Shown piece by piece: positions 1 to 62,929 of a DNA stretch of 64,000 nt (position 1 is the stretch's first letter; each line of letters opens with the position of its first letter). The translations under genes and the position numbers were made by a program. Source of the DNA: Tubulanus polymorphus. Lineage: Eukaryota > Nemertea > Palaeonemertea > Tubulaniformes > Tubulanidae. The stretch is taken from assembly GCF_964204645.1 (NCBI RefSeq), contig NC_134025.1, forward strand, positions 31,712,001 through 31,776,000, given 5' to 3'. The notes below the pieces were generated by a model. That model did no database searches. It was not told the DNA's origin and saw nothing but the letters and a program-made list of their open reading frames with translations.

Positions 1-16403
<16,403 letters not shown>

Positions 16404-21324: not shown

Positions 21325-22640
21325 TTACAATAAAACTGCCCCCTAGTGGAGGATTCCGACACTATAACCAAGAGATCTATATATGAAGATCAAAAACTGC
21401 CCCCTAGTGTGGGATTCTGACACTATAACCAGAGATTTATACATGAAGATCAAACACTGCCCCCTAGTGGTAGATTCCGACACTATAACCAAGAGATCTA
21501 TATATGAAGATCAAAAACTGCCCCCTAGTGTGGGATTCTGACACTATAACCAGAGATTTATACATGAAGATCAAACACTACCCCCTAGCGGAGGATTCCG
21601 CCACTATAACCAAGAGATTTATACATGAAGATCAAAAACTGCCCCCTAGCGGAGGATTCCGACACTATAACCAAGAGATTTATACATGAAGATCAAAAAC
21701 TGCCCCCTAGCGGAGGATTCCGACACTATAACTAGAGATTTATACATGAAGATCAAAAACTGCCCCCTAGCGGAGGATTTCGACACTATAACCAAGAGAT
21801 TTATACATGAAGATCAAAAACTGCCCCCTAGCGGAGGATTCCGACACTATAACTAGAGATTTATACATGAAGATCAAAAACTGCCCCCTAGTGTAGGATT
21901 CTGACACTATATCCAGAGATTTATACATGAAGATCAAAACTGCCCCCTAGTGTGGGATTCCGACACTATATCCAGAGATTTATACATGAGATCAAAAACT
22001 GCCCTCTAGTGGAGGATTCCGACACTATAACCCAGAGATTTATACATGAAGATAAAAAACTGCCCTCTAGTGGAGGATTCCGACACTATAACCAAGAGAT
22101 TTATACATGAAGATCAAAACTGCCCCCTAGCGGAGGATTCCGACACTATAACCAAGAGATTTATACATGAAGATCACAAACTGCCCCCTAGCGGAGTATT
22201 CCGATACTATAACCAAGAGATTTATACATGATGATCAAAAACTGCCCCCTAGTGGAGGATTCCGACACTTTAACCAAGAGATTTATACATGATGATCAAA
22301 AACTGCCCCCTAGCGGAGGATTCCGACACTATAACCAAGTGATTTATACATGATGATCAAAAACTGCCCCCTAGTGTGGGATTCCGACACTATAACCAAG
22401 AGATTTATACATGATGATCAAAAACTGCCCCCTAGCGGAGGATTCCGACACTATAACCAAGAGATTTATACATGAAGATCAAAAACTGCCCCCTAGCGGA
22501 GGATTCCGACACTATAACCAAGAGATCTATACATGAAGATCAAAAACTGCCCCCTAGCGGAGGATTCCGACACTATAACCAACAACACTACTCCAGAGAT
22601 TTATACAGTGGCTATAACACTGCCCCCTAGTGTAGGATTC
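21325..22640 (+). repeat. ~61-bp minisatellite with CTCF-core-like motif
   Basis: About 22 units begin CTGCCCCCTAGTGGAGGATT or CTGCCCCCTAGCGGAGGATT and continue CCGACACTATAACCAAGAG, then ATTTATACATGAAGATCAAA. The GCCCCCTAGTGG core is close to the bilaterian CTCF core, GCGCCCCCTRGTGG. Isolated related monomers occur at 22800, 23088, 38498 and 39340-39640. Confidence 0.92.
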
Positions 22641-38267: not shown

Positions 38268-38659
38268 ACTAGAGTCTTCATGGTCACAGTGAACGAGCAC
38301 GCCACCTAGCGAACAAATATTGAATTATATTCCAACCATAATGTGCTAATTAGTGTGTTAATTTGATAATTGGTTAATGAATTTTGGTTGCTCTAATATA
38401 AAACAGTGTCTTCATTCTGTGCTTCACTAAAATCTTTTTTTTAGTAAATAAAAATCTTGTCAAAGCAGGAATAATGAGTTTATAGTAGGAATGTAACCCC
38501 CTAGTGGAGGTTTCCAACACTACCCTGAGAGATTTACCATGGCTTGTGGCAAGTCTTTGCGCTACCTTGATTTGTGTATGGTGTGAATATCTTCGGTAAT
38601 AAAATTCAATTTGCTCCGAGTCTTTCTGTGGCATGTGAGTCAACCGTTTTACCGACATT

Positions 38660-39080
38660 CGCTGAGTAAAAAGTTCTATTAAAAGTAGCTCGATAATCGT
38701 TTTAAAAAGCAAATTCCCCTAAAATAAAGTTTTAAATTGATCCAATTGATCGTTTTGAACAAACTATCGGTAGTGATGATTGCAATTTGACTCGATATTC
38801 CTCACATGCCGCAGTAGATCTCAACCGTTCAGTGCTGCCTCTAGGAATAAAAGTTCTATTAAACGTGGCTCAAAAACCGTTTTAAAAAGCAAATTCCCCT
38901 AAAATAAGGTTCTAAAATTGATCCAATTAATCGTTTTGAACAAACAATTGGTAACGACGATTGCTATCGATATTCCTCGCATGCCGCAGTAGAATGCGAG
39001 ATCTCAACCGTTCAGTGCTGCCCCTATGAATAACGATAGCGGAATTTCTGTGAACTAAAATGATAGCGCGTACCGCCGGA
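38660..39080 (+). mobile_element. Dispersed repeat family, copy B (internally duplicated)
   Basis: A ~190-bp segment with AAAAAGCAAATTCCCCTAAA and ATCGTTTTGAACAAAC occurs twice in tandem (about 38665-38840 and 38850-39030). The second copy is followed by GTGCTGCCCCTATGAATAAC and GATAGCGG, shared with copies A and C. Confidence 0.7.
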
Positions 39081-39339
39081 TTGGGGTACAGTGCGGACCA
39101 CGTGACGTTTATTCTGATCAGTCTCTTAAATTCTAGATTTTATTTCCATATTTTTGGGGGGGATTTACGAGTGTAGTTTCAGTGCTAGTCTAGTAGAGTC
39201 TTTCAGTCGCTAATTACATCTACGCTAATGCTTTATTCAATGAAATGTACTCGCATTTGATAAATGCTTTAAAATCTAGTTTCATTCTCAATTCATTTTA
39301 TTCCATTTTAGATTTTTTACACGTCATGATTGAAGATGC

Positions 39340-39690
39340 CCCCTAGTGGAGGATTCCGACACGATTAAACGATAGATTTATGGCGAAAACTGCCCCCTAT
39401 ATTCCATCACGACTACTGAATTTGGATACGAATATTTATTACCCTCAAAAACCATTTCCATGGTGTAAGAGATGTATGATTAAAACTGCCCCCTAGATGT
39501 GGACTCCAAAAACAATGTTACCTAGAGATTTATTCATGTAGATCAATAACGCCCCCTATTGCAGGATTCCAACACTGTAACCATGAGAAATGCATGGGGA
39601 TAAAAAGTACACCTAGCAAGGATTACGACACTACAGGATGATTGAGATTCACAAATTAGAACCGCCCCCTTGTGGTCGAAGCCAATACCA
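39340..39690 (+). repeat. Scattered monomers related to the 61-bp array
   Basis: GCCCCCTAGTGGAGGATTCC, then ACGATAGATTTATGGCG, and further diverged units (GCCCCCTAGATGTGGACTCC; GCCCCCTATTGCAGGATTCC) share the order of motifs seen at 21325-22640, about 17 kb away. Confidence 0.75.
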
Positions 39691-39949
39691 ATCCGAAACG
39701 GAAAAAAAAGAAAAAACAAAGATTGAAACTAACAAAATAATTATCATTTGTTAACAGAATAAATAATACAACAGCCTCACATGCCAGGGACAAATATTGC
39801 ACTGTTCTGCCCCCTATCGGTGAATAAAATAACCACAAACAGCAGATGCTAGCCCTGTTTTTACCCGTTTTGATATCACTTACATTTGATTGTCAGATAT
39901 TTCAAATTTATGTACATAAGATATTAATAGAACTTATAAAACAAATGAA

Positions 39950-40224: not shown

Positions 40225-43200
40225 TTAGACGTTGCTTGTAGGCAGTGATTGTAATAATTTCAGTACTAAATCCTGAGCACTTGGAGGATTCTCCATAAAC
40301 CAACAAACTCTCATCAAATTCAGCATCTGAAACGAAGAATTACGTGGAAAATAAAGACAATTAATTCATAGAAGAATTAAAACTAGTGAGAATATAGATG
40401 ATCAATTCATAGATGAATTAAAGACTTACGTGATAACCGATAATTCCTATTTTACGAGTTTGTTTCATCTCTTCGATCAGACTGAGTATTTTATTTATAT
40501 CACCGCTTAGTAAAGAATCGAACGGAACTTTACTATAAGTGCTGCAGATATATCTACAATAAGCCACGTGATGTCCTGTTATACCGATCTGTCTGTGACC
40601 CCGGTCTGTTTCACAGTACTGAAATATCGGGGAACTATTCAGTACGAATGAATTGTTAATAGATGGCGTTCTAGTCGATTTACTGATAGTTGAAGCCGCT
40701 ATTATCGACTCCTCATCGTCTGAAGTCCATGACGTCACCGCTTTAGAGTTTACCGATATCGTACTGCTGGGACTGGGGCGCCCCCTAGTGACCGGACTAT
40801 TACGCACCTTAGTGACCGGACTGGTACGCCCCCTAGCGCGATTTTCAGTTGTTAATTTAGCTAATAAGACAGCCTGTCTGCCGGCGTTATCCGGATAAAG
40901 TCCAATAGCTTGTAATAAAACATCTTCGTCGCTTTCGTTAACAGGTGTCGCCTGTTGTCTCAATCTGTTCACTTTACCTTGTCTAATAGGTGTCGCTATA
41001 CGTACTGAACTAGTACCAGACCTGGCAGCAGCAGCTGTAGCAGCTGTAGCTGCTCGAGCAGGTGTATTAGATGTAACAGGACTGGTATTTTCACTAGAGT
41101 CATTAACACACCCGCTATCCTCACTGAAATAAGCTGTATCTGACTGCAGTATTTCATCCTCTAATCGATACTGGGTCGTGTCTGGTATATCACAGATATT
41201 AGCTGTAGTCGTTACAAGATGTTTCCTGCTGGTCACCTCAGCACCTGCAGTAGCTGCACCTGACTCATTCTCCTCAGCTGCAGCTGCTAACTCTCTCTCA
41301 GTCTCCTCGCAGATGCTACTTTCCTGTGAGTTCGTTCTACCGTTTTCTGTTGTTACAGATTTTTTATTACGTGAAGTTTCTCTTCGTAAATCAGTGGAGG
41401 CCGCGAATCTCGACAGAGATGAATCCATCGAATGATTCCCAGGACTATTCCTCAAATGTTTCGGATCCATCGTTAAATTCTGACAACTTTGCGATAACGG
41501 TTTTGATTTGTTCGGATACGTGCTTCTGATTGGATTAGAGCGCGCTACGTTGGCTCTGATTGGTCGAACACGGTTGTTATTACCCATGATTCTATCTCTC
41601 AAACTCTTCTGCTGATTCTGATACCTGTCGCGCATATTTTTAGTAAACGCCGAGTTTTTCTGTTTTTGTATAGATTTGTGTTCCTCAGCTGCCAGCTGCA
41701 CCTGTAGCTGCTGCTGCTGCTGCTGTTCCTTACTCTGCCAGGCGTTTTTAACTATTGTCTCATTGTCTGTTATTTCTAACTCTTCTGATAAATCCCACAT
41801 ACTCGCTGTCGCACCACCACCAGCGCCACCTTTACGAACTCGCTGTCTATGCGCCACACTAGTTGTACTAGGAGACGTTTGTTTTGGGGTTGAGCCAGGC
41901 TTGCTGGGGGTTGAGCTAGGCTTGCTGGGGGTTGAGCCAGGCTTGCTGGGGGTTGAGCTAGGCTTACTGGGGGTTGAGCTAGGTTGTCTAGGGGTTGAGC
42001 TAGGTTGTCTAGGGGTTGAGCTAGGTTGTCTAGGAGTAGAACCAGGCTGTCTATGGGTAGAACCAGGCTGTCTATGGTTAGGCTGTCTGGGGGTTGAGAC
42101 AAGCTGTCCAGGGTTAAGGATCATGAGTTGGCCGGGTCTTGGCGTCCCGAGATGCCCAGGGTTGGTTGTAGGCTGTGTGTTCTCTAATTTCATTCCAATC
42201 ATCTCTTGTTCAATCAACTTGTCATCATCATCGATGCTGTTTATTCGCTGTTGAACTTTATTCTCCTCGTCAGCCTCCTCTAATATCGATTGTATGATCG
42301 CCTCTGATTCCGCGTCTATAACAGTACTGTGTACATCCAGTCTACTGACAGCACCGGTTCGGTTAATCTCTGCTGTACTGGGCCGGGAGCGGTCCACGGG
42401 CCCGGGGCCATTCACTGCTGTACTGGGCTGGGAGCGGTCCACGGGCCCGGGGCGATTCACTGCTGTACTGGGCCGGGAGCGGTCCACGGGCCCGGGGCGA
42501 TTCACTGCTAATTCTAACGGCTCACTCCTCGGACTCAGGTTTAATTTCTCACTGAAATCAACAGTTTGTCGTTTTGAAGCCGCTTTTACTTCGTGTACGT
42601 TACTGGGTAGAGTTGGTACCAGATCGGGCTGCTGCCGTTTGGGTTTACTAACTGTAGGTAGCTGCTGCTGCTGCTGCTGCTGGTGCTGGTGCTGGTGCTG
42701 CTGGTGCTGCTGGTGCTGCTGCTGTTGAGTTGTTCTAACACGTTGTTCTGTACTATATCCTGAATCGAGTCGTCTGATCGGTTTGTTGTTACTGCTGTTA
42801 TAATGATGTCCTGCACCACTCGATGACTCGCTCCCGTATGATCGCACTGTATTACTGGAACTAACGCTATCGTGACGCGGTTTCAGAATTTTAATTTTCG
42901 GCGCATTCGATGACGTCACGACCTCGTGACTAGTTTTCTGTTGTTTATTCGACGACGGTTTGCGAGGAAGTTCAAGGTCAGATGAGTAATTATGATGCGA
43001 AATCGAGGCTTGTATGGGTTTACATTTTAAACGTCCTCTATTTTCCTCCTCAGCAGCACGTTTTGCCTCGTCATCGATTTGTGCTACTTCTAAATCGGCT
43101 AATATATCCTCATCAGTTTCATCCTCAGTTTCCTCGCTCGCTGCTGCTGGTAAAGGATGTAAAACTAAAACTCTCGAGTCCTGCGCTGAATTAATTATAT

Positions 43201-46200
43201 CGATTCTTCTCGGCGAATTCGAATTCTGAATCAACGGTTTTGATTGGATAACTTTTATACCAGTCGCTTTCTGATTGGCTCCGGAGTTAAAACTCAGCAT
43301 CTGATTGGCTGCGGCGTTGTAACCCGGCTTCTGATTGGCTGTGACGTTGTAATTCGGATTCTGACTGGCCGAAGCGACGAAACTCTGCTTCTGATTGGTT
43401 AAACTATCAGTATCGCTGTGAGTTAAGGTACTTACAATGGATAACTGTTCGGGTGGAGGTCCTTCAACTGATAACTCACTTACCGCGCTTGCGCAGTTAC
43501 CACGTGTTAAACCGTAACGATAATAAAACAGACACATGATCATTTCTAATAGAACTAATCCGTACGATCTGAGCTCGCCGATAAATAACTCAATACTGAA
43601 TTCATCACAGTTCGAGGAATCGTTTATAACCTGAGAATCTTCAAAATCCGCTAAAACAGCTTTCAATAACATATTCTGTAAAAACAAGAAATAAAATAAA
43701 ACTGAATATCGTGAACATTTAGAGTTCTGAATTTCTGCATGTTGAACTAAGGAACTGTGTGGAACTGAGGAACTGTGGAATTGTGGAACTAACATGTGGA
43801 ACTGAGGAACTGTGGAACTGTAGAACTAACGTGTGGAACTGAGGAACTGTGGAACTGTAGAACTAACGTGTGGAACTGAGGAACTGTGGAACTGTAGAAC
43901 TAACGTGTGGAACTGAGGAACTGTGGAACTGTAGAACTAACGTGTGGAACTGAGGAACTGTGGAACTGTAGAACTAACGTGTGGAACTGAGGAACTGTGG
44001 AACTGTAGAACTAAGGGGCTAGTTGCATTTTCATTTAGACACCGTTAATCGAAATTGAAACATCAAGTAATGCTCAACGTCTGGAAGGGAGAAGGTTCCA
44101 GGGCTGGTTGCATAGTCATGGCTTAGACTTAAACCTAGTCTAAGGCCAACTTAGTTCTATAGCCAATCGTACAACTTAAGATTTTAGACCACTTTTGGAC
44201 TTAAGTCATGACTGTGCAACTGGCCCCTGGACTGTGGAACAGAATTTACACTAGAATAGCTTCCAATCATCCCTAGTTCTACAGCTGTAAGTTTCATTAT
44301 CAATGAAGTGAAACAATATCAACAAACCTCAGTTGATCCAATAAGATAAATGTTTTTGCTCGAAATTCGACCGTGTACGAGATTTAATGATCTTAAATGA
44401 CCGATTCCTTTAGCTACATCAACGGCTAACATGTGTAAACATCCTTCCGTTAGTAGTTTTGGGGGATGTTGAAGCAATTTACGTAAACTTCCGTGATCTA
44501 AAAACGCTCTACAAATCACCCTGAAATATAAAACACAGTAGTCTTATAGATCACTGAATAGTCAACAGACAAAGAGCTGGTCCGACAACATGAGAGAGAG
44601 TGGTCCGGCCGTGGTCCGGCCGCAGACACTACGGGATGCCCTGCTGCCCAAACAACCGCGTCAGGATCGACGATTAGATTAAATAAATTAAATTAACACA
44701 AAAATATATGATTCTGACCCTAATTTACCCTTCAGCAAACTTCCACACCCGAATGTGCACAAGAGTTAGACGAAATACCAGAATTCATAGTGGTTGAATG
44801 AGGGATGTTTATTTCAACACGCTATATACGCGCTCAGATTTCAGGTCCAACTAAAACTGACCCCTAAAATCAATGTTGCCTAAAAACGCATATCACGAGG
44901 TTTACAAGGATACTAGAATCTCTGCTGCTGGAATCAGTCAATGATTGTCGTTTATTTCAGGGAATTTGAAAATGGAAGCGCAATTAATTGCGCTTCAATT
45001 AAACTTGTTTATGTTCAAATTTCATAGAAATGACCTCTTAAAACACATTGTGCCTGAACCACACCTGGCAAGGTGCCCGAGAATGAGTGAGTCACTACAC
45101 CTGACTGGTCACCACACACCCACTAACCCTAAACCTAACTTAAAACATACTTCTTTGGCAATGTTTTTATGTAATTGTTCGTCAGATGATTTCTATTTCT
45201 ATGTATGAATAAAGATACGACCTTTATATAAATCGTTTCTGTTCTAATTGTTCTTACAAAATATGCAAATTGTCCAAATTCAATCTAATTTCCTGGCAAA
45301 TTAATTGAAGTGATACAAAAACCCCTTGTTTGGGGTATTGTAAAGTGAATATAGGGGTCGCTACGCATGACTGGTTATCACATAACAATGGTCAACACAC
45401 TGACAAATCAAAATGGGTTGACCACCAGAACTCTATGGTCTAGTGGTAGACACTCTGGTTTGGCAGGTGAGAGACCCGAGTTCGAGTCTCAGCCCAGCTA
45501 GGGTTAGGGTTACGGAGGATGGAACTAGGGTTAGGGTTACGGGTCACCTAGGGTTTGGCTAGACGTGTTTTCATCATTTTTTACGCTATGATTTCCCCTT
45601 TAAAAAAAATTTTTACAAATATGTATATTTTGAAATAGAGAAAGGTTTCTAACGCTTTAGGATGAGATAGGAAAAGGCTCCAATTATGAGAGAATTAGGT
45701 TTTTGTGTGGCAGAATTTGTCCAAATTCATGGCTAAAAGCTTGTTTATTTTATTAAACTGTAAATTGTTTGGGTTATTCAGGAATTTTAAAAGGTTTTCC
45801 TATCGAGTTGGCTGTTTGTTAAACTTATATATATTTGACTTTGATATGAACTAATTACACAACAACATTTACACACTGGACAGAACTGTACTACATGACT
45901 GTATAAACATGTCAGGTACTCGCAGGTACCCGAGACAGCACCAGGCACCCACAGGTACCAGAGACTGCACCAGGCACCCACAGGTACCCGAGACTGTTCC
46001 AGGTACTCGCAGGTACCCAAGACGGCACCAGGTATCCACAGGTACCAGAGACTGTGCCAGGTATCCACAGGTACCCGAGGCTGTGCCAGGTACTCGCAGG
46101 TACCCGAGAATTCTCTAACCTACCTTGATTTACGATTAATTCCTATTTGTGATTGTGATATGATTCCTGTGTAGTATCGATTCTGATTTGATGACCAGTA

Positions 46201-47452
46201 ATATTTCACGATATTCTCATGCGGGGTTTTAGTAATTAAAGCCGCTGCTTGAACTTCATTTTGCCATCGATCTTTCATATTTACAGGAAACACTTTCATT
46301 ACACCACTCACTACTACACCGTCTATCGGCCATTTCACTTGCATTAATAAAATATCCGTCTACAAATTCAGAAAAAAAGAAGGGAAATGATTGTGAAATA
46401 TCGAATTGAAGAATAAGAAAATAATAATAAAGAAATATCGAAATTAATTTATTATTGATATTTCAGAGAATTGAACTTACTTTAATTTGATTCGGCATCA
46501 CTTTTATATCCTGAATTTCTAGCGGTACAATTGAGACATCTTTATAAATAATATCAGCAGTTTTACTGCGAGAAGAGTTTAATCCTAGTTTACCGCGATC
46601 GCGAAGATAACTGATTAACGGAACTAAAGTATGGATTAACATACATATACCCGATATATACCCGACCGGCCATTTCATCTTATCCTTATCAGTGGTCGAT
46701 CCGTTGAAAAATGCTGACGTCACAAAACACAATATAACGAAGTAAGAAACGACATCGATCAATAACCAGATGATCAACCTCTTTAAAGAGATCCAGTGAT
46801 CATAGAATGTCGTTTCCGGATCAGTATCCAGTCTCAGGTTAAATTTAGGATAGGATTTCGCTAGAATATAAATACATAGCGCTACAGTACTGGTTATACC
46901 TAACCATAGAATAAACAGTTGAAAGAATGAGTATCCCCAGTCGTTCTCTCCGGGTATCCGTAACGGGATACACGAGTATCTGTAAGGTAGTCCAGTATCG
47001 AACATGTCTGTAGCTGCCATGGGTAAAAATGAGATAATTGCGGTAACGGTCCATTCTACTAAAACTATTGTCGTAAAAATACAAACGCAGAATCCACCTC
47101 TAGCCAGTTTACCCAGTTGCCATAGCAACATGGTAACTACGGTAGTGACGTGCATGAATATTGTTGTAGTGAACATGAATAATAATATGAATCCAGCTCC
47201 GCGACACGACGACGAGGTGGAGGAGGAGGAATTATCAGATATATCATCAGCAGATATCACAACTATCAATAATCCGATACTAAATCCGATAGATCCGATA
47301 TCCTGTAGAATATAACTCATCTTTATAACGATTAAAACATCTTTATGTTCCCGAATCGATCTCCATATCATCAATATCAGGTTAGCAACGATCGCTATAG
47401 CAACTAGAATAGATAGAATGTATCCAGCAGCTTGTTCACCGGGTTCGAACAT
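40225..47452 (-). CDS. Seven-transmembrane receptor fused to a TGF-beta-receptor-like pseudokinase
   Basis: Minus-strand exons are 47452-46481, 46359-46124, 44520-44328, 43675-40430 and 40326-40225: 4749 nt, 1582 aa, with every junction in phase. Exon 1 holds seven hydrophobic helices (about residues 9-31, 44-66, 87-115, 122-147, 175-198, 225-250, 263-288) and candidate disulfide cysteines in the first (SSCRGAG) and second (YSCIPL) outer loops. Exons 2-5 encode a kinase fold: VMKVFP (Lys346), WQNEVQAA (Glu359), HENIVKYYW, RAFLDHGSLRKLL, HGRISSKN (452-459), ADFE (476-479), GLVLLEM and final VCWFMENPP. KVFP...WQNE...HENI and LDHGSL resemble activin/TGF-beta type II receptors. HRD has become HGR and DFG is DFE, so catalysis is unlikely. 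About 980 disordered residues sit inside the C-lobe. A non-coding first exon may end at about 48151. Confidence 0.85.
40430..43675 (-). other. Giant exon 4 encoding the kinase-loop insertion
   Basis: This is a 3246-nt stop-free exon (1082 codons). It begins with kinase subdomain VII (LADFEDS) and ends with GIIGYH before the last kinase exon. The interior is low-complexity: NQKPGYN-like repeats, acidic and serine-rich blocks, HQ/poly-Q (42655-42725), NRPGPVDRSRPSTAV x3 (42370-42515) and STPSKPG/STPRQPS heptads (41880-42110). Codon-level repeats stay in frame, which supports coding. Confidence 0.85.
43740..44012 (+). repeat. 37-bp GGAACTGAGGAACTGTGGAA minisatellite in receptor intron 3
   Basis: GGAACTGAGGAACTGTGGAA followed by CTGTAGAACTAACGTGT repeats about seven times, starting about 65 nt from the exon 4 acceptor. 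Confidence 0.92.
44098..44230. mobile_element. MITE-like element with ~24-bp terminal inverted repeats, copy 1
   Basis: Starts CCAGGGCTGGTTGCATAGTC and ends GACTGTGCAACTGGCCCCTG followed by G. The ends are near-perfect inverted repeats. It is 133 bp, non-coding and inside receptor intron 3. Related copies are at 50770-50912 and 60105-60236. Confidence 0.85.
44531..45330. other. Receptor intron 2, unique part
   Basis: AT-rich unique sequence with no exon seen between the exon 3 acceptor (44521) and the SINE-like element. Confidence 0.5.
45420..45560 (+). mobile_element. tRNA-derived SINE-like element with TTAGGG-type tail, copy 1
   Basis: Contains an A-box-like TGGTCTAGTGGTAGAC and, about 40 nt later, a B-box-like GAGTTCGAGTCTC. 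The tail is CTAGGGTTAGGGTTAC repeated twice. A second copy is at 57160-57300 with the same head (GAACTCTATGGTYTAGTGGT). It does not fold as a functional tRNA. It lies in receptor intron 2. Confidence 0.75.
45905..46110 (+). repeat. ~21/42-bp CAGGTACCCGAGAC minisatellite
   Basis: CAGGTACCCGAGACTGCACC-type units with CAGGCACCCA spacers occur about nine times, ending about 14 nt from the donor of receptor exon 2. Confidence 0.9.
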
Positions 47453-49715: not shown

Positions 49716-52700
49716 CTATATATCCTTTACATTATCTAACGAACCAATAGATGGCGTTAGTAGTGTTTGTTTATATTGATTCAATGCTTCTTGGTCTGCC
49801 GGGCATTCGAAATGAACACAATGGAAAACCTGTAATTTAAAACACAACAATCAATTCAGTTATATACACAGACACAGATAAACAATAGCTCGTTAGTTAA
49901 TTACCTCGTTAGCAGTATTGTGCGTTCCAATTAATTTTACAAATGCCACGGGCCGTTTCGGAAACGTTAGGATTTCCCAAGATCTGAAAAGTTTAATAAA
50001 CAAATAAATTGATATCAGTTTTCATCGGCTCTCTCCCATAAACACCCAGTGTCCCTCCCTCTAGTCTGGCCCCGCCCCCCCCCCCTGGCCCCCTGGCCCC
50101 CACCTCTCTCTCCTGTAAGGCTTACCTACAGTTTTCACGTTTAGCTACTGTTTCCCAGTTTTGTTGATTCACTGAAACTTCTATATTGTAACTATACCTT
50201 CGGTCATCGCAGTCCCATAGCAACAATCTGTTACAACAATATAATACACATAGCAACAATGGATGACAGCAGTCGCTATAGAAACGGAATAACGTCGTAC
50301 AAACCTCATAGAATCTAACATGTACGGCTGAGCTAACTGTATAATAATACATCCACTACCTAACTGATGACATGTATATCCACTATCCCAGTCATAGTTC
50401 TTAGTATGACCATTAATGAGAGCATTACGACATCTACTGACACCTTCTAATACACACGCACTGCAGTCTAATGTAGCTACATTCTTACTGGGTACTAAAA
50501 CATATAAACACACTGATAATACACGTCATATACCGGTCTCTTAGAATAGAGTTTAACAGTTGGATGATACAGTAGACTCTGTTTGTAGAACCATGTTTTA
50601 ACTTACCGATAATTCCATTGTCTAAAACAAATGTTGAATAAGTGAAATAACATTCAAATGCGATCGCGTGGAAAACTCTGTTGACAGTGTTGTGAGTCCC
50701 GACAATACGAAAATACCTACAAATATATAAAACAATAACTGAGCCCTGGCGAGTGAGTAAAACTGAGCCCCTGGGGCCGGTTCCATAGTCGAGATTTAAG
50801 TCCAAAAGTCACAAATCTTAAGACTGGTCTTAAGCTGTTAGATTAGCTATAGAACTAAGAGAGCCTTAGACTGGTCTTAAGTCTAAGCCATGACTATGGA
50901 ATTTGCCCCTGGTGAGTGAGTAAAAACTAAGCCCTGGGAAGTGATTAAGCCATCTTTATTTTGTAAGTCCCAAGTTGTATTTCTAATTCAATTTACTAAG
51001 CATAATTCATTATCATATTGATCACCACAAATATAATGAGGAGTTCTAGCTGTATTTATACTTACTTTGCGACGTGAATGAGTAGAACTGAGCCCTGGCG
51101 AGTGAGTTATACTTACTTTGCGACGTGAGTGAGTAGAACTGAGCCCTGGCGAGTGAGTTATACTTACTTTGCGACGCGAATGAGTAGAACTGAGCCCTGG
51201 CGAGTGAGTTATACTTACTTTGCGACGCGAGTGAGTAGAACTGAGCCCTGGCGAGTGAGTTATACTTACTTTGCGACGCGAGTGAGTAGAACTGAGCCCT
51301 GGCGAGTGAGTTATACTTACTTTGCGACGCGAGTGAGTAGAACTGAGCCCTGGCGAGTGAGTTATACTTACTTTGCGACGCGAGTGAGTAGAACTGAGCC
51401 CTGGCGAGTGAGTTATACTTACTTTGCGACGCGAATGAGTAGAACTGAGCCCTGGCGAGTGAGTTATACTTACTTTGCGACGCGAGTGAGTAGAACTGAG
51501 CCCTGGCGAGTGAGTTATACTTACTTTGCGACGCGAGTGAGTAGAACTGAGCCCTGGCGAGTGAGTTATACTTACTTTGCGACGCGAATGAGTAGAACTG
51601 AGCCCTGGCGAATGAGTTATACTTACTTTGCAACGCGAGTGAGTAGAACTGAGCCCTGGCGAGTGAGTTATACTTATTTTGCGACGCGAGTGAGTAGAAC
51701 TGAGCCCTGGCGAGTGAGTTATACTTACTTTGCGACGCGAGTTGGAAAGTGTAATTTTTGCCAGGATCGACAGAAATATTTGGAATGATCGACGATGCAA
51801 ACCCAGTCTTTATTATCCATAGAACATTCAATATAATACGAGTAAGATCTGTAAAATATAAAACGCGTTCATCTAATTATTTCCTTTCAAATGAGTTAAA
51901 TTCCCGGATCCAGTTGCACCGGGTGTAGGTTAACACTCAATGAGACTACTCACTGACCTCTGATCTCTATCCCACAATAACAATCTGATAGTGTTTATAA
52001 TATGTGGCTCCTTTAACTGAACGACTATTCCAGGATTAGCGCAAGATTCATCGATTAAATGTCGACTAAATCCCCGATCTAAATCATACGTCGTAACATC
52101 CTCGTCTAACAATGCAGATTTAATCTCACCGTGGATGACTTCAGCTCCGTGACGACTTGTGGCGACATTCTCATCACTTACTGTAAATACAACAATAAAC
52201 ATCTCACTGATCCTCTTAAACCTCCCTCATCCCCTCCCCTTCCCCTTCATCCCCTCCCCCTCCCCTTCATCCCCTCCCCCTCCCCTTTATCCCCTCCCCC
52301 TCTTCATCCCCTCCCCTCCCCTTCAGCTCCTCCTCCTCTCGTGTCTCGATTCTCCCTGGAACCCCTGTATCTCCAGATTCTCCCTGGAACCCCTGTATCT
52401 CCAGATTCTCCCTGGAACCCCTGTATCTCCAGATTCTCCCTGGAACCCCTGAATCTCCAGATTCTCCCTGGAACCCCTGTATCTCCAAATTCTCCCCGGA
52501 ACCCCTGTATCTCCAGATTCTCCCTGGAACCCCTGTATCTCCAGATTCTCCCTGGAACCCCTGTATCTCCAGATTCTCCCTGGAACCCCTGAATCTCCAG
52601 ATTCTCCCTGGAACCCCTGTATCTCCAGATTCTCCCCGGAGCCCCTATATCTCCAGATTCTCCCCGGAACCCCTGTATCTCCAGATTCTCCCTGAAACCC

Positions 52701-54791
52701 CTGTATCTCCAGATTCTCCCTGGAACCCCTGTATCTCCAGATTCTCCCTGGAACCCCTGTATCTCCAGATTCTCCCTGGAACCCCTGAATCTCCAGATTC
52801 TCCCTGGAACCCCTGTATCTCCAGATTCTCCCTGGAACCCCTGTATCTCCAGATTCTCTCTGGAACCTACCTAAGATGCCTCTATAACTGAGTTCCATAT
52901 TTTTACATTTAGTTTTAGTTTGTATTGCATCTAGTAATGCGTCCGGTGAGACTAAAGTCGTCGGTCGAACTTTAGTAAGAATCTCGTCTAAATCCATCAG
53001 AGGTAAGCGTACACATTGAATAACTCGATCGCGCGGTAACTCGGGATTATTATCAGCCCAGTTACAAACAGCTGTGAATATATCATTCTCATTCGCATAA
53101 AACGAATCACGACGCACGATTTCATACAACGCATTCTGAAATATACAATATAGATGGAGCCACCGGTATCATAAACACTGTCCAACAGTTCCAGGCTGCA
53201 GTTGCTCAATAGTTTGTTAGTGATGAATGCAATTTCTTTTGTCGCTATATGACATTTATCTACAAGTAACTTTAATGCATTTTTGAGCAACTGCAGTTAA
53301 TACAGCCCGGACTCTGACTGAGGGAGGAGGGGAGGGGGTGTAACAGCCCGGACTGTGACTGAGGGAGGAGGGGAGGGGGTGTAACAGCCCGGACTGTGAT
53401 TGAGAGAGGAGGGGAGGGGGTGTAACAGCCCGGACTGTGATTGAGGGAGGAGGGGAGGGGGTGTAACAGCCCGGACTGTGACTGAGGGAGGAGGGGGTGT
53501 AACAGCCCGGACTGTGACTGAGGGAGGAGGGGAGGGGGTGTAACAGCCCGGACTGTGACTGAGGGAGGAAGGGAGGGGGTGTAACAGCCCGGACTGTGAT
53601 TGAGGGAGGAGGGGAGGGGGTGTAACAGCCCGGACTGTGATTGAGGGAGGAGGGGGTGTAACAGATAGAATATAACTAACCTCTGTTAATGAAATGAAGC
53701 CATCTGATTGGATGATATGTTTAGCGTTAGAATCGATATGTTTTAAACATGTTGCCGATAGTGAATTCAGATTGTATAGATTCGCTATATTATAAATCAT
53801 ACAAATATTTCTCAGATTTAAATTAGCTTTTAAATATTCTGAGATCGATGTTTCTAAATCTAGAAATCCGTACTGATGAACCAGATCTAAAACATCTAGA
53901 AGATTCTCTTCCTATAAAATATAAAACGATATTTATTTAATAAAACAGAGATTTCACGACAGTTTTAACCGAGATATTTCTATTACCTTCATGTTCGCCA
54001 GTTTTATTCTTCCTGTATAAATATATTTGAGTAATAATTGGAATGCAGTTGAAGAAGGAACTTGTAATTCTATTTCACGACAAGTCGGAGCTGATTCTTT
54101 TAAACCTCCGTAAAGTAGAGCCCTGAAAATATCATCAAATTTAAAACAGTTTCTCCATTTGTTATGACTAGAGTTTGAAGAATTCATTAAATCAAACAGT
54201 GACCGGGTGCTTGGTTAGGATAAGGGTCAGTGACCCGGTGCTTGGTTAGGATAAGGGTCAGTGACCCGGTGCTTGGTTAGGATAAGGGTCAGTGACCCGG
54301 TGCTTGGTTAGGATAAGGGTCAGTGACCCGGTGCTTGGTTAGGATAAGGGTCAGTGACCCGGTGCTTGGTTAGGGTTAGGGTCAGTGACCGGGTGCTTGG
54401 TTAGGATAAGGGTCAGTGACCCGGTGCTTGGTTAGGGTTAGGGTCAGTGACCGGGTGCTTGGTTAGGATAAGGGTCAGTGACCCGGCGCTTGGTTAGGGT
54501 TAGGGTCAGTGACCGGGTGCTTGGTTAGGATAAGGGTCAGTGACCCGGTGCTTGGTTAGGATAAGGGTCAGTGACCGGCGCCTCTTGTTACCTGAAATAT
54601 TCAGATCTTGCGGCTAAAACAACTCTATGAACCGGGAATCGAGTTTGTTCTACTTTCAATACGAGATCGCTGTACTCTGTAGATTCTAATAAATTACTGA
54701 AATCTTCAGATAGATTCATCACATGATCGATAGAATCAACTCCAGCAGCTCCAGCTCCAGCTGATATTACTCCAGTTGAATTGTTACTCAT
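49716..54791 (-). CDS. BTBD9: BTB/POZ domain-containing protein 9 (BTBD9)
   Basis: Minus-strand exons are 54791-54592, 54122-53987, 53911-53681, 53135-52871, 52180-51958, 51848-51729, 50716-50607, 50494-50305, 50227-50126, 49983-49905 and 49829-49716: 1770 nt, 589 aa (human 612). Order: BTB domain (YSDLVLKVEQTRFPVHRVVL, ARSEYFRALLYGG, LLLKYIYTGRI), BACK domain (LDLVHQYGFLDLETSISEYL; DSNAKHIIQSDGFISL), then two discoidin-like modules. Each module has a LLLWDxDxRxYSY core, an IVGTHNT/LIGTHNT motif and a final FxCVHFEC or FHAIAFEC strand. Expected role: cullin-3 substrate adaptor; in flies and vertebrates linked to iron/dopamine biology and sleep. Four introns (1, 3, 4, 6) hold donor-anchored minisatellites. 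In intron 6 the repeat includes the exon end. Confidence 0.96.
50770..50912. mobile_element. MITE-like element, copy 2
   Basis: Ends CCTGGGGCCGGTTCCATAGT and GACTATGGAATTTGCCCCTG are inverted repeats. The interior shares ACTGGTCTTAAG and GATTAGCTATAGAACTAAGA with copy 1. It lies in BTBD9 intron 6. Confidence 0.82.
51062..51728 (+). repeat. 51-bp repeat made from the BTBD9 exon 6 end and donor
   Basis: GCGACGCGAGTGAGTAGAAC followed by TGAGCCCTGGCGAGTGAGTT and ATACTTACTTT recurs at 51069, 51120 and so on to 51732 (13 exact 51-bp steps). The last copy is the real exon end. On the minus strand every unit reads ACTCGCGTCGCAAA|GTAAGT, that is 14 bases of exon plus a consensus donor. Confidence 0.95.
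52205..52330 (+). repeat. CCCCTTCATCCCCTCC pyrimidine-rich tract
   Basis: C/T-rich low-complexity DNA in BTBD9 intron 4, adjoining the 28-bp array. Confidence 0.85.
52340..52866 (+). repeat. 28-bp minisatellite in BTBD9 intron 4
   Basis: ATTCTCCCTGGAACCCCTGT followed by ATCTCCAG repeats about 19 times, up to 4 nt from the exon 4 donor (GTAGGTTCCAGAGAGAATC on the minus strand). Confidence 0.93.
53296..53662 (+). repeat. ~41-bp minisatellite in BTBD9 intron 3
   Basis: TAACAGCCCGGACTGTGACT followed by GAGGGAGGAGGGGAGGGGGTG repeats about nine times and ends about 18 nt from the exon 3 donor. Confidence 0.92.
54200..54578 (+). repeat. 31-bp minisatellite in BTBD9 intron 1
   Basis: GTGACCCGGTGCTTGGTTAG followed by GATAAGGGTCA repeats about 12 times and ends about 13 nt from the exon 1 donor. 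Confidence 0.93.
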
Positions 54792-61685: not shown

Positions 61686-62598
61686 CGACGAGTTGAGGAG
61701 AGGGAGTTGTGAAGGAGTCGAGTTGAGGAGAGGGAGTTGTGAAGGAATCGAGTTGAGGAGAGGGAGTTGTGAAGGAGTCGAGTTGAGGAGAGGGAGTTGT
61801 GAAGGAATCGAGTTGAGGAGAGGGAGTTGTGAAGGAATCGAGTTGAGGAGAGGGAGTTGTGAAGGAGTCGAGTTGAGGAGAGGGAGTTGTGAAGGAGTCG
61901 AGTTGAGGAGAGGGAGTTGTGAAGGAGTCGAGTTGAGGAGAGGGAGTTGTGAAGGAATCGAGTTGAGGAGAGGGAGTTGTGAAGGAGTCGAGTTGAGGAG
62001 AGGGAGTTGTGAAGGAGTCGAGTTGAGGAGAGGGAGTTGTGAAGGAGTCGAGTTGAGGAGAGGGAGTTGTGAAGGAATCGAGTTGAGGAGAGGGAGTTGT
62101 GAAGGAGTCGAGTTGAGGAGAGGGAGTTGTGAAGGAGTCGAGTTGAGGAGAGGGAGTTGTGAAGGAATCGAGTTGAGGAGAGGGAGTTGTGAAGGAATCG
62201 AGTTGAGGAGAGGGAGTTGTGAAGGAGTCGAGTTGAGGAGAGGGAGTTGTGAAGGAGTCGAGTTGAGGAGAGGGAGTTGTGAAGGAGTCGAGTTGAGGAG
62301 AGGGAGTTGTGAAGGAGTCGAGTTGAGGAGAGGGAGTTGTGAAGGAGTCGAGTTGAGGAGAGGGAGTTGTGAAGGAGTCGAGTTGAGGAGAGGGAGTTGT
62401 GAAGGAGTCGAGTTGAGGAGAGGGAGTTGTGAAGGAATCGAGTTGAGGAGAGGGAGTTGTGAAGGAGTCGAGTTGAGGAGAGGGAGTTGTGAAGGAGTCG
62501 AGTTGAGGAGAGGGAGTTGTGAAGGAGTCGAGTTGAGGAGAGGGAGTTGTGAAGGAGTCGAGTTGAGGAGAGGGAGTTGTGAAGGAGTCGAGTTGAGC
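61686..62598 (+). repeat. 30-bp minisatellite, about 30 copies
   Basis: GAGTTGAGGAGAGGGAGTTG followed by TGAAGGAGTC keeps an exact 30-bp period. Most variation is a single G/A (GGAGTCG or GGAATCG). Stop-free frames of about 310-340 codons on both strands are periodicity artefacts. Confidence 0.96.
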
Positions 62599-62929
62599 AG
62601 ACGTGTGGCGAAGAGTCGACATGCGCCGAATAAATCGTCACGTGGTTGTGAAGTGTTGGTATTATCGACTGTTTTTGAATTAGTTTGAAATGTAGAATCG
62701 TATCGGAGAGATCTGTATTTCTATCGGGAGGGACCGGAAGTGTATGTATTCTTCTTGTAAATCATGTGATCATTGAACATTATACATAACTTAATTAACC
62801 CAGAGATGAAGAAACATCGCTAGGATTTTTAGAAAAAAATACAACTTATCATAAATTATCAGGACACGTATAAACAAAAACAATTTACAATTGGCAATAA
62901 ATATGCGCCATTATTCTAGTTCGCAGAAA

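Follow-up and report, generated by a model that had tools for sequence, protein, structure and literature searches.

A candidate gene of Tubulanus polymorphus predicted to join a GPCR-like seven-helix domain to a pseudokinase

Fusions of G protein-coupled receptors (GPCRs) with kinase domains have been reported from choanoflagellates, sponges, oomycetes and Amoebozoa. According to the accessible text of PMC12716839, receptors of the GPCR-TKL/K type (TKL, tyrosine kinase-like) are found in acanthoecid choanoflagellates only, and those of the GPCR-TK type (TK, tyrosine kinase) in choanoflagellates and sponges and in no other metazoan lineage. The same text infers that GPCR-kinase fusions arose repeatedly and states that none has been functionally characterized to its authors' knowledge. 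In the accessible part of PMC5784254, GPCR-TKL bigrams are recorded for oomycetes and Amoebozoa and called rare or nonexistent in metazoans, and a DEP domain is present in 8 of the 17 GPCR-TKLs of P. infestans. Here we describe a gene model in a 64,000-nucleotide stretch of Tubulanus polymorphus DNA (contig NC_134025.1, positions 31,712,001 to 31,776,000; hereafter the window) that predicts the same bigram order, in which one open frame encodes a seven-transmembrane (7TM) domain followed by a kinase domain. A preliminary description of this DNA had placed 7TM-TKL fusions mainly in oomycetes, amoebae and choanoflagellates, in agreement with the accessible text of both articles, which adds the sponge GPCR-TKs. 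We consider it probable that the locus is one gene for a 1,582-residue membrane receptor that has an outside N terminus, GPCR-like helices, a tail of about 40 residues and an inside pseudokinase with a disordered loop, and that works through a pseudokinase switch.

The gene model, like the predicted helices, the loss of catalytic residues and the insert described below, was drawn from the sequence. On the minus strand, positions 47452..40225 carry five exons with GT-AG at every border, and the phases agree at all four junctions (0/0, 2/2, 0/0 and 0/0 in the order of exons 1 to 5). Joined, the exons encode 1,582 residues followed by a TAA stop, with no internal stop. Exon 1 (46481..47452) consists of 324 open codons with the 3' border AAA/GTAAGT and encodes residues 1-324, predicted to comprise a short N terminus, the seven-helix domain and the cytoplasmic tail. 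Exon 2 (46124..46359) enters in phase 0, leaves in phase 2 and encodes the kinase N-lobe with the words KVFP (including Lys346), WQNE and HENI. Exon 3 (44328..44520) provides the hinge, HGSL, alphaE and the remnant of the catalytic loop. Exon 4 (40430..43675), with 1,082 open codons, contains DFE, a short activation segment without APE, alphaF (GLVLLEM), a long insert and the start of alphaG. By its reading frame, exon 5 (40225..40326) ends the protein with alphaH-alphaI (MRVCWFMENPP), the C terminus SNV and the TAA stop. Thus, the 324-codon seven-helix exon ending at a GT donor, the borders and phases of four further exons, and the words KVFP, WQNE, HENI, HGSL, GLVLLEM and CWFMENPP were all found as the preliminary description had given them.

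The open reading frame (ORF) of exon 1 extends over 349 codons, beyond what chance produced in 500 first-order Markov copies (longest, 191 codons). When trained on exon 4, a codon model gave the assigned frame the best score among the three forward frames of every other exon (1, 2, 3 and 5); one frame on the reverse strand of exon 1 came out slightly higher (-0.131 vs -0.179). Trained on these four exons instead, the model preferred the assigned frame in every full block of exon 4 (10 of 10), the eleventh block being a 6-base end piece that is uninformative for the codon score. The tandem repeats of exon 4 have periods of 21/63 and 45 bp, all multiples of three, unlike the arrays of introns 2 and 3 and of the downstream sequence, whose base periods are 29, 37 and 25 (score ≥150). 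This difference fits exon 4 being translated. The degenerate catalytic motifs described below, the single copy and the absence of a detected relative would also suit a decaying or mispredicted locus without a functional product. That explanation is very improbable given the 1,582 open codons, the codon-usage signal in the assigned frame and the insert repeats in multiples of three.

Exons 2-4 match the Pfam family PK_Tyr_Ser-Thr (PF07714) with E 1.4e-9. The match spans exons 2-3, and the ORF surrounding exon 3 gave E 6e-8 on its own. The PF00069 match (E 2.2e-6) lay below the cut-off of that family, and an NCBIfam scan returned weak kinase-like matches only. Lys346 of strand beta3, Asn459 of the catalytic loop and Asp477 of DFG are retained. 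The HRD motif, however, reads HGR (residues 452-454) and DFG reads DFE (477-479); in the sequence, HGRISSKN (44352..44375, minus strand) replaces HRDxKxxN, with Arg in place of the catalytic Asp and Asn459 kept. The glycine loop and APE are both absent from the kinase part. Because the HRD Asp, the DFG glycine, the glycine loop and APE are all lost, the kinase-like domain is, judged by its residues, a pseudokinase, which might still bind nucleotide. In the exons scanned against Pfam, there was no DEP, Activin_recp or GS match.

The end of exon 4 together with exon 5 aligns collinearly but weakly with alphaG-alphaI of EGFR, across the last intron, and we therefore take the kinase domain to be split after alphaF. 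The C-lobe piece matched EGFR best. In a PDB search, the entries with 243-303 as their best stretch had a whole-chain E of 0.023-0.043, with no stretch passing E 1 alone. Direct comparison of the C-lobe piece with an EGFR sequence, picked on the grounds of this PDB match, yielded z 6.0, and 35 kinase sequences from the same genome reached at most 2.4.

The low-complexity insert between alphaF and alphaG (40577..43489) comprises residues 530-1500. Its 971 residues are made up to 78% of P, S, T, Q, N, E, D, K, R, G and A, compared to 53% in the kinase part, and are predicted to be disordered. This splitting of the C-lobe is a new feature, absent from the preliminary description. Exon 4 contains a strong internal donor, GCG/GTAAGT (43478..43486, GT at 43483), with a score of 9.59 and phase 0. 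Joined to exon 5, it could remove the insert while keeping the frame, with alphaG lost as well. The C terminus SNV resembles a class I PDZ ligand.

Receptor kinases of the TGF-beta family (STKRs) have a single transmembrane helix, a cysteine-rich ligand ectodomain and catalytic HRD and DFG motifs. To place the kinase part, which the preliminary description had called TGF-beta type II receptor-like, we used comparisons with kinases of the same genome, with reference kinases and with PDB sequences. The genome encodes at least five TGF-beta receptor-type kinases (L031-L035): one ACVR2 (L031), one BMPR2 and three type I receptors, named by resemblance to human sequences (human ACVR2A in the case of ACVR2). 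These five assembled STKRs and 30 further loci, drawn from 109 PF07714 places, made up the set of 35 own-genome kinase sequences; many of these loci are exon fragments, and L052 is the same gene as L032. Within this set, ACVR2 ranked first (z 9.7), followed by a ROR-like receptor tyrosine kinase (RTK; L036, 8.4), a fragment (6.4) and BMPR2 (4.6); the type I receptors reached 2.7, 1.0 and 0.5. Among eight reference kinases, the order was ACVR2A (12.1), SRC (10.5), TGFBR2 (8.6), EGFR (7.0), ABL1 (6.1), BRAF (4.5), TGFBR1 (4.0) and BMPR2 (1.8). In the PDB sequence searches LRRK2 and RET were top-scoring, and no TGF-beta receptor was among the 35 matches of one search, the best 60 of 290 or the best 60 of 319.

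The N-lobe carries the words KVFP, W..E, HENI and SKN and tends towards type II receptors, the C-lobe towards RTKs. The earlier family assignment is thus only partly supported: the N-lobe words and the first rank of ACVR2 among the 35 speak for it, and the close RTK, the LRRK2 and RET matches and the EGFR-like C-lobe do not. Since seven helices are predicted instead of a single helix with a cysteine-rich ectodomain, and HGR and DFE stand where STKRs have HRD and DFG, we did not file the gene as a TGF-beta receptor. ACVR2 of the same genome shares with it K[IV]FP, W..E, HEN/HDN, GSL, SKN, GLVL.E and a phase-0 intron near alphaH; it differs in its active HRD and DFG, and the last introns lie 4 codons apart. 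An intron shared with the STKRs was considered and rejected, as introns of the same phase that are 4 codons apart were not counted as homologous. Separately, the three own STKRs that could be read on both sides have a phase-0 intron in common, located 13 residues N-terminal to the CW of alphaH.

A hydropathy scan of the predicted protein revealed nine overlapping stretches within residues 4-284 (46601..47443, minus strand), which we interpret as seven helices, of which the first starts around residue 4-10. Two weaker stretches lie in the kinase part (327-345 and 497-517). A single-sequence AlphaFold2 model, a check that the preliminary description had suggested, contained seven long helices and a short one (255-260) at low confidence, with a mean predicted local distance difference test (pLDDT) of 49 and a predicted template modelling score (pTM) of 0.30. 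The charged loops RSIREHK, LGKLAR, AKSYPK and RDRGK fall on the predicted inside, and by these loop charges the N terminus is predicted to be outside and the tail inside.

Residues N24, D51, C83, W134, P144, C161 and Y195 occupy class A-like positions. Both Cys3.25 and the cysteine of extracellular loop 2 (ECL2) are present in exon 1, with the helices around them predicted only. The class A motifs D/ERY, CWxP and NPxxY are lacking: Met stands at the expected R3.50 position, helix 6 has no CWxP and helix 7 reads LVPLISY. The best other place for exon 1 in the genome (E 0.62; 3 candidates scored) was a class A exon at locus L006, presumably LGR/RXFP-like by eye. Over helices 2-5 the two aligned with a score of 94, compared to 37.7 ± 7.0 for block-shuffled sequences, none of 500 of which reached 94; as L006 was chosen as the best match, this signal is biased upward. 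L006 retains ERY, which exon 1 lacks. In pairwise comparisons with 12 unselected class A exons of the same genome, z was 4.9-5.5 for three and below 2 for nine. We call exon 1 GPCR-like and do not count it as a member of class A.

The two halves are separated by intron 1 (46360..46480, 121 bp), whose removal would join position 46481 to 46359. Splice scores were calculated from approximate weight tables. On this scale, and counting both strands of the window, the exon 1 donor is in the top 0.43% (7,948 GTs) and the acceptor of exon 2 in the top 0.24% (8,713 AGs). The donor scored 9.44, compared to 5.39 for the next best GT in its ORF, and the acceptor is the sole AG scoring ≥4 in 46480-46100. 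From a density of 0.27 per kb per strand, simple arithmetic gives an expectation of about 0.005 for such a donor in the needed phase within the last 60 bp of the ORF. Splice signals and distance are thus the evidence for the fusion. Of the animal 7TM-pseudokinase receptor proposed in the preliminary description, the gene model joins both parts, and it is by these signals and this distance that we join the 7TM exon to the kinase exons.

Several observations weigh against a single gene with a GPCR-like first half. Without splicing, the frame of exon 1 continues with VSSIL into a stop at 46465-46463, the sixth codon past the donor. An AATAAA begins at 46453 in intron 1, about ten bases beyond that stop, and an in-frame ATG (46344) lies 15 bases into exon 2. 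The exon 3 donor, GAG/GTTTGT, is the weakest border of the gene model (top 8.5% of GTs). As a proof of fusion, we had considered a kinase strand beta1 in the exon 1 tail; it was rejected because shuffled tails did equally well for five of six references, and for the sixth 6.5% of shuffles reached the score. Exon 1 matched no Pfam 7TM family (7tm_1), the only hit being DUF2567 at E 1.6. Nor did exon 1 match any of the PDB sequences. With a profile of 13 class A sequences from the same genome, it ranked 12th of 301 (exon 1 and 300 shuffled copies; E 3.5). Finally, protein database searches with the full length (region set to residues 1-550), with exon 1 and with the 613-residue form lacking the insert found no relative at E 0.001, 1 and 10, respectively. 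The exon 1 search had 1,743 candidates, and the other two were confined to the 7,999 and 8,000 candidates with the most words in common; because the animal coverage of the database is uncertain, they are weak evidence of rarity.

The stop is followed by the AATAAA, then by roughly 100 bp rich in AT (intron 1 has 21% GC), the acceptor and the in-frame ATG, as at the junction of a trans-spliced operon. The locus could hold two genes in tandem, in an operon-like arrangement or simply side by side. The first would be an intronless GPCR with the end IKVSSIL-stop at 46463, and the second a pseudokinase gene whose mRNA would begin at or near the acceptor 46361 and be translated from ATG 46344 (MQVKWPIDG...). 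Two genes would agree with exon 2 being able to provide its own beta1-like strand, DILLMQVK, and with intronless GPCRs being common in this genome, where most of 149 class A GPCR matches fall in frames without an internal stop. They would, however, turn the strong in-phase donor into a coincidence. The AATAAA carries little weight, as it occurred in 15.7% of 2,000 Markov copies of intron 1, and a start at ATG 46344 would cut the beta1-like strand.

Ten Hox genes, each on the plus strand, form an ordered cluster in the genome (C6:5318231-5634753; L078-L087), which by their signatures reads Post2, two Lox2/Lox4-type genes, Antp, Lox5, Scr, Dfd, Hox3, pb and lab. Because of its Post2-, Lox2/Lox4- and Lox5-type genes, the genome reads as that of a lophotrochozoan, not obviously a rotifer or flatworm; a lophotrochozoan origin had been presumed in the preliminary description. 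Among lophotrochozoans, the accessible text of PMC3795323 lists spliced-leader trans-splicing for rotifers and flatworms, with mollusc candidates undecided. In the annelid D. gyrociliatus it is reported absent, 'similar to other annelids', in the part of PMC7854359 available. We regard two tandem genes as unlikely.

The acceptor of exon 2, being in phase 0, would take any phase-0 donor. Fused and unfused forms might therefore coexist, if the kinase gene started in an exon upstream of 47452 and skipped the 7TM exon, or if the 7TM exon were an alternative first exon. As the exon 1 donor is best explained by its use, this arrangement is improbable.

In the genome, the kinase part is present in single copy (4 candidates scored), as is exon 1, which had weak matches at E 0.62 and 5.68 (3 candidates scored). 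Compared by domain order, the choanoflagellate GPCR-TKL/Ks and GPCR-TKs and the sponge GPCR-TKs in the accessible text of PMC12716839 resemble the gene in having an N-terminal 7TM domain followed by a C-terminal kinase of TK/TKL type. The gene differs from them in its lophotrochozoan origin, its pseudokinase and its C-lobe split by 971 residues. With the oomycete and Amoebozoa GPCR-TKLs it shares the order of 7TM and TKL domains; 8 of 17 P. infestans GPCR-TKLs have a DEP domain, unlike the exons scanned here with Pfam (PMC5784254, accessible part). In the open-licence PubMed Central literature, as far as its accessible text goes, we found no bilaterian 7TM-kinase fusion.

Other features of the window were recorded as well. 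Much of it is occupied by minisatellites (63 entries, some overlapping). At 9927-12723, a 51-bp minisatellite of 54.8 copies (98% match) is spanned, in three frames, by ORFs of about 960 codons, and near-perfect arrays lie at 61689-62601 (30 bp, 30.4 copies) and 51056-51742 (51 bp, 13.5 copies). A 61-bp array (AAAACTGCCCCCTAGCGGAGG...) is located at 21332-22582, and its word bearing AGGGGGC also recurs, by eye, dispersed downstream of the gene (38500-39900). On the minus strand at 52323-53911, two exon-sized ORFs contain BACK-domain halves (BTB-BACK type), and the same frame continues into minisatellites. On the plus strand, the end of an ORF at 12933-13652 encodes a C2H2 zinc finger, whose Pfam match (E 2e-4) falls just short of the cut-off and which resembles the first finger of KLF/SP proteins. 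An Rfam scan of the window gave no match at the gathering score, and a search of the assembly did not recover COX1.

Receptor guanylyl cyclases combine a single-helix membrane sensor with a kinase-like domain that has no phosphotransfer of its own. They and the pseudokinase receptors are similar to the present gene in linking a sensor to a kinase-like domain, but have one helix and a cyclase or active-kinase output, and no such output domain is present here. From the anatomy of the gene model and from receptors with kinase-homology domains, we infer a working for the receptor that includes a joint transcript, a direction of signalling and partners. A ligand or a membrane change at the helices would move helices 6-7 and the short tail, and this movement would alter the state of the attached pseudokinase. 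With its beta3 Lys, catalytic-loop Asn and DFG Asp, the pseudokinase could serve as a nucleotide-sensitive switch or as the partner of an active kinase, the usual phosphate transfer being presumably impossible. The disordered loop and the PDZ-like C-terminal end may gather effectors or docking partners. Such signalling would bypass or supplement G-protein coupling. Allosteric activation by a receptor kinase is the subject of PMC11259431, as far as its accessible text indicates.

The combination of domains is otherwise on record for unicellular eukaryotes and sponges; as far as our searches show, the present case would, if real, be the first GPCR-kinase fusion of a bilaterian. On balance, we lean slightly towards the fuller view that a 7TM domain has been wired to a TK/TKL pseudokinase with a 971-residue disordered platform, perhaps removed by alternative splicing, and that this fusion arose independently of those in choanoflagellates, sponges, oomycetes and Amoebozoa. 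If true, the bilaterian case would extend the repeated fusion of 7TM and kinase domains to those animals whose GPCR signalling is fullest. It would also be a natural setting in which to ask whether a 7TM domain can control a kinase fold by allostery and independently of G proteins.

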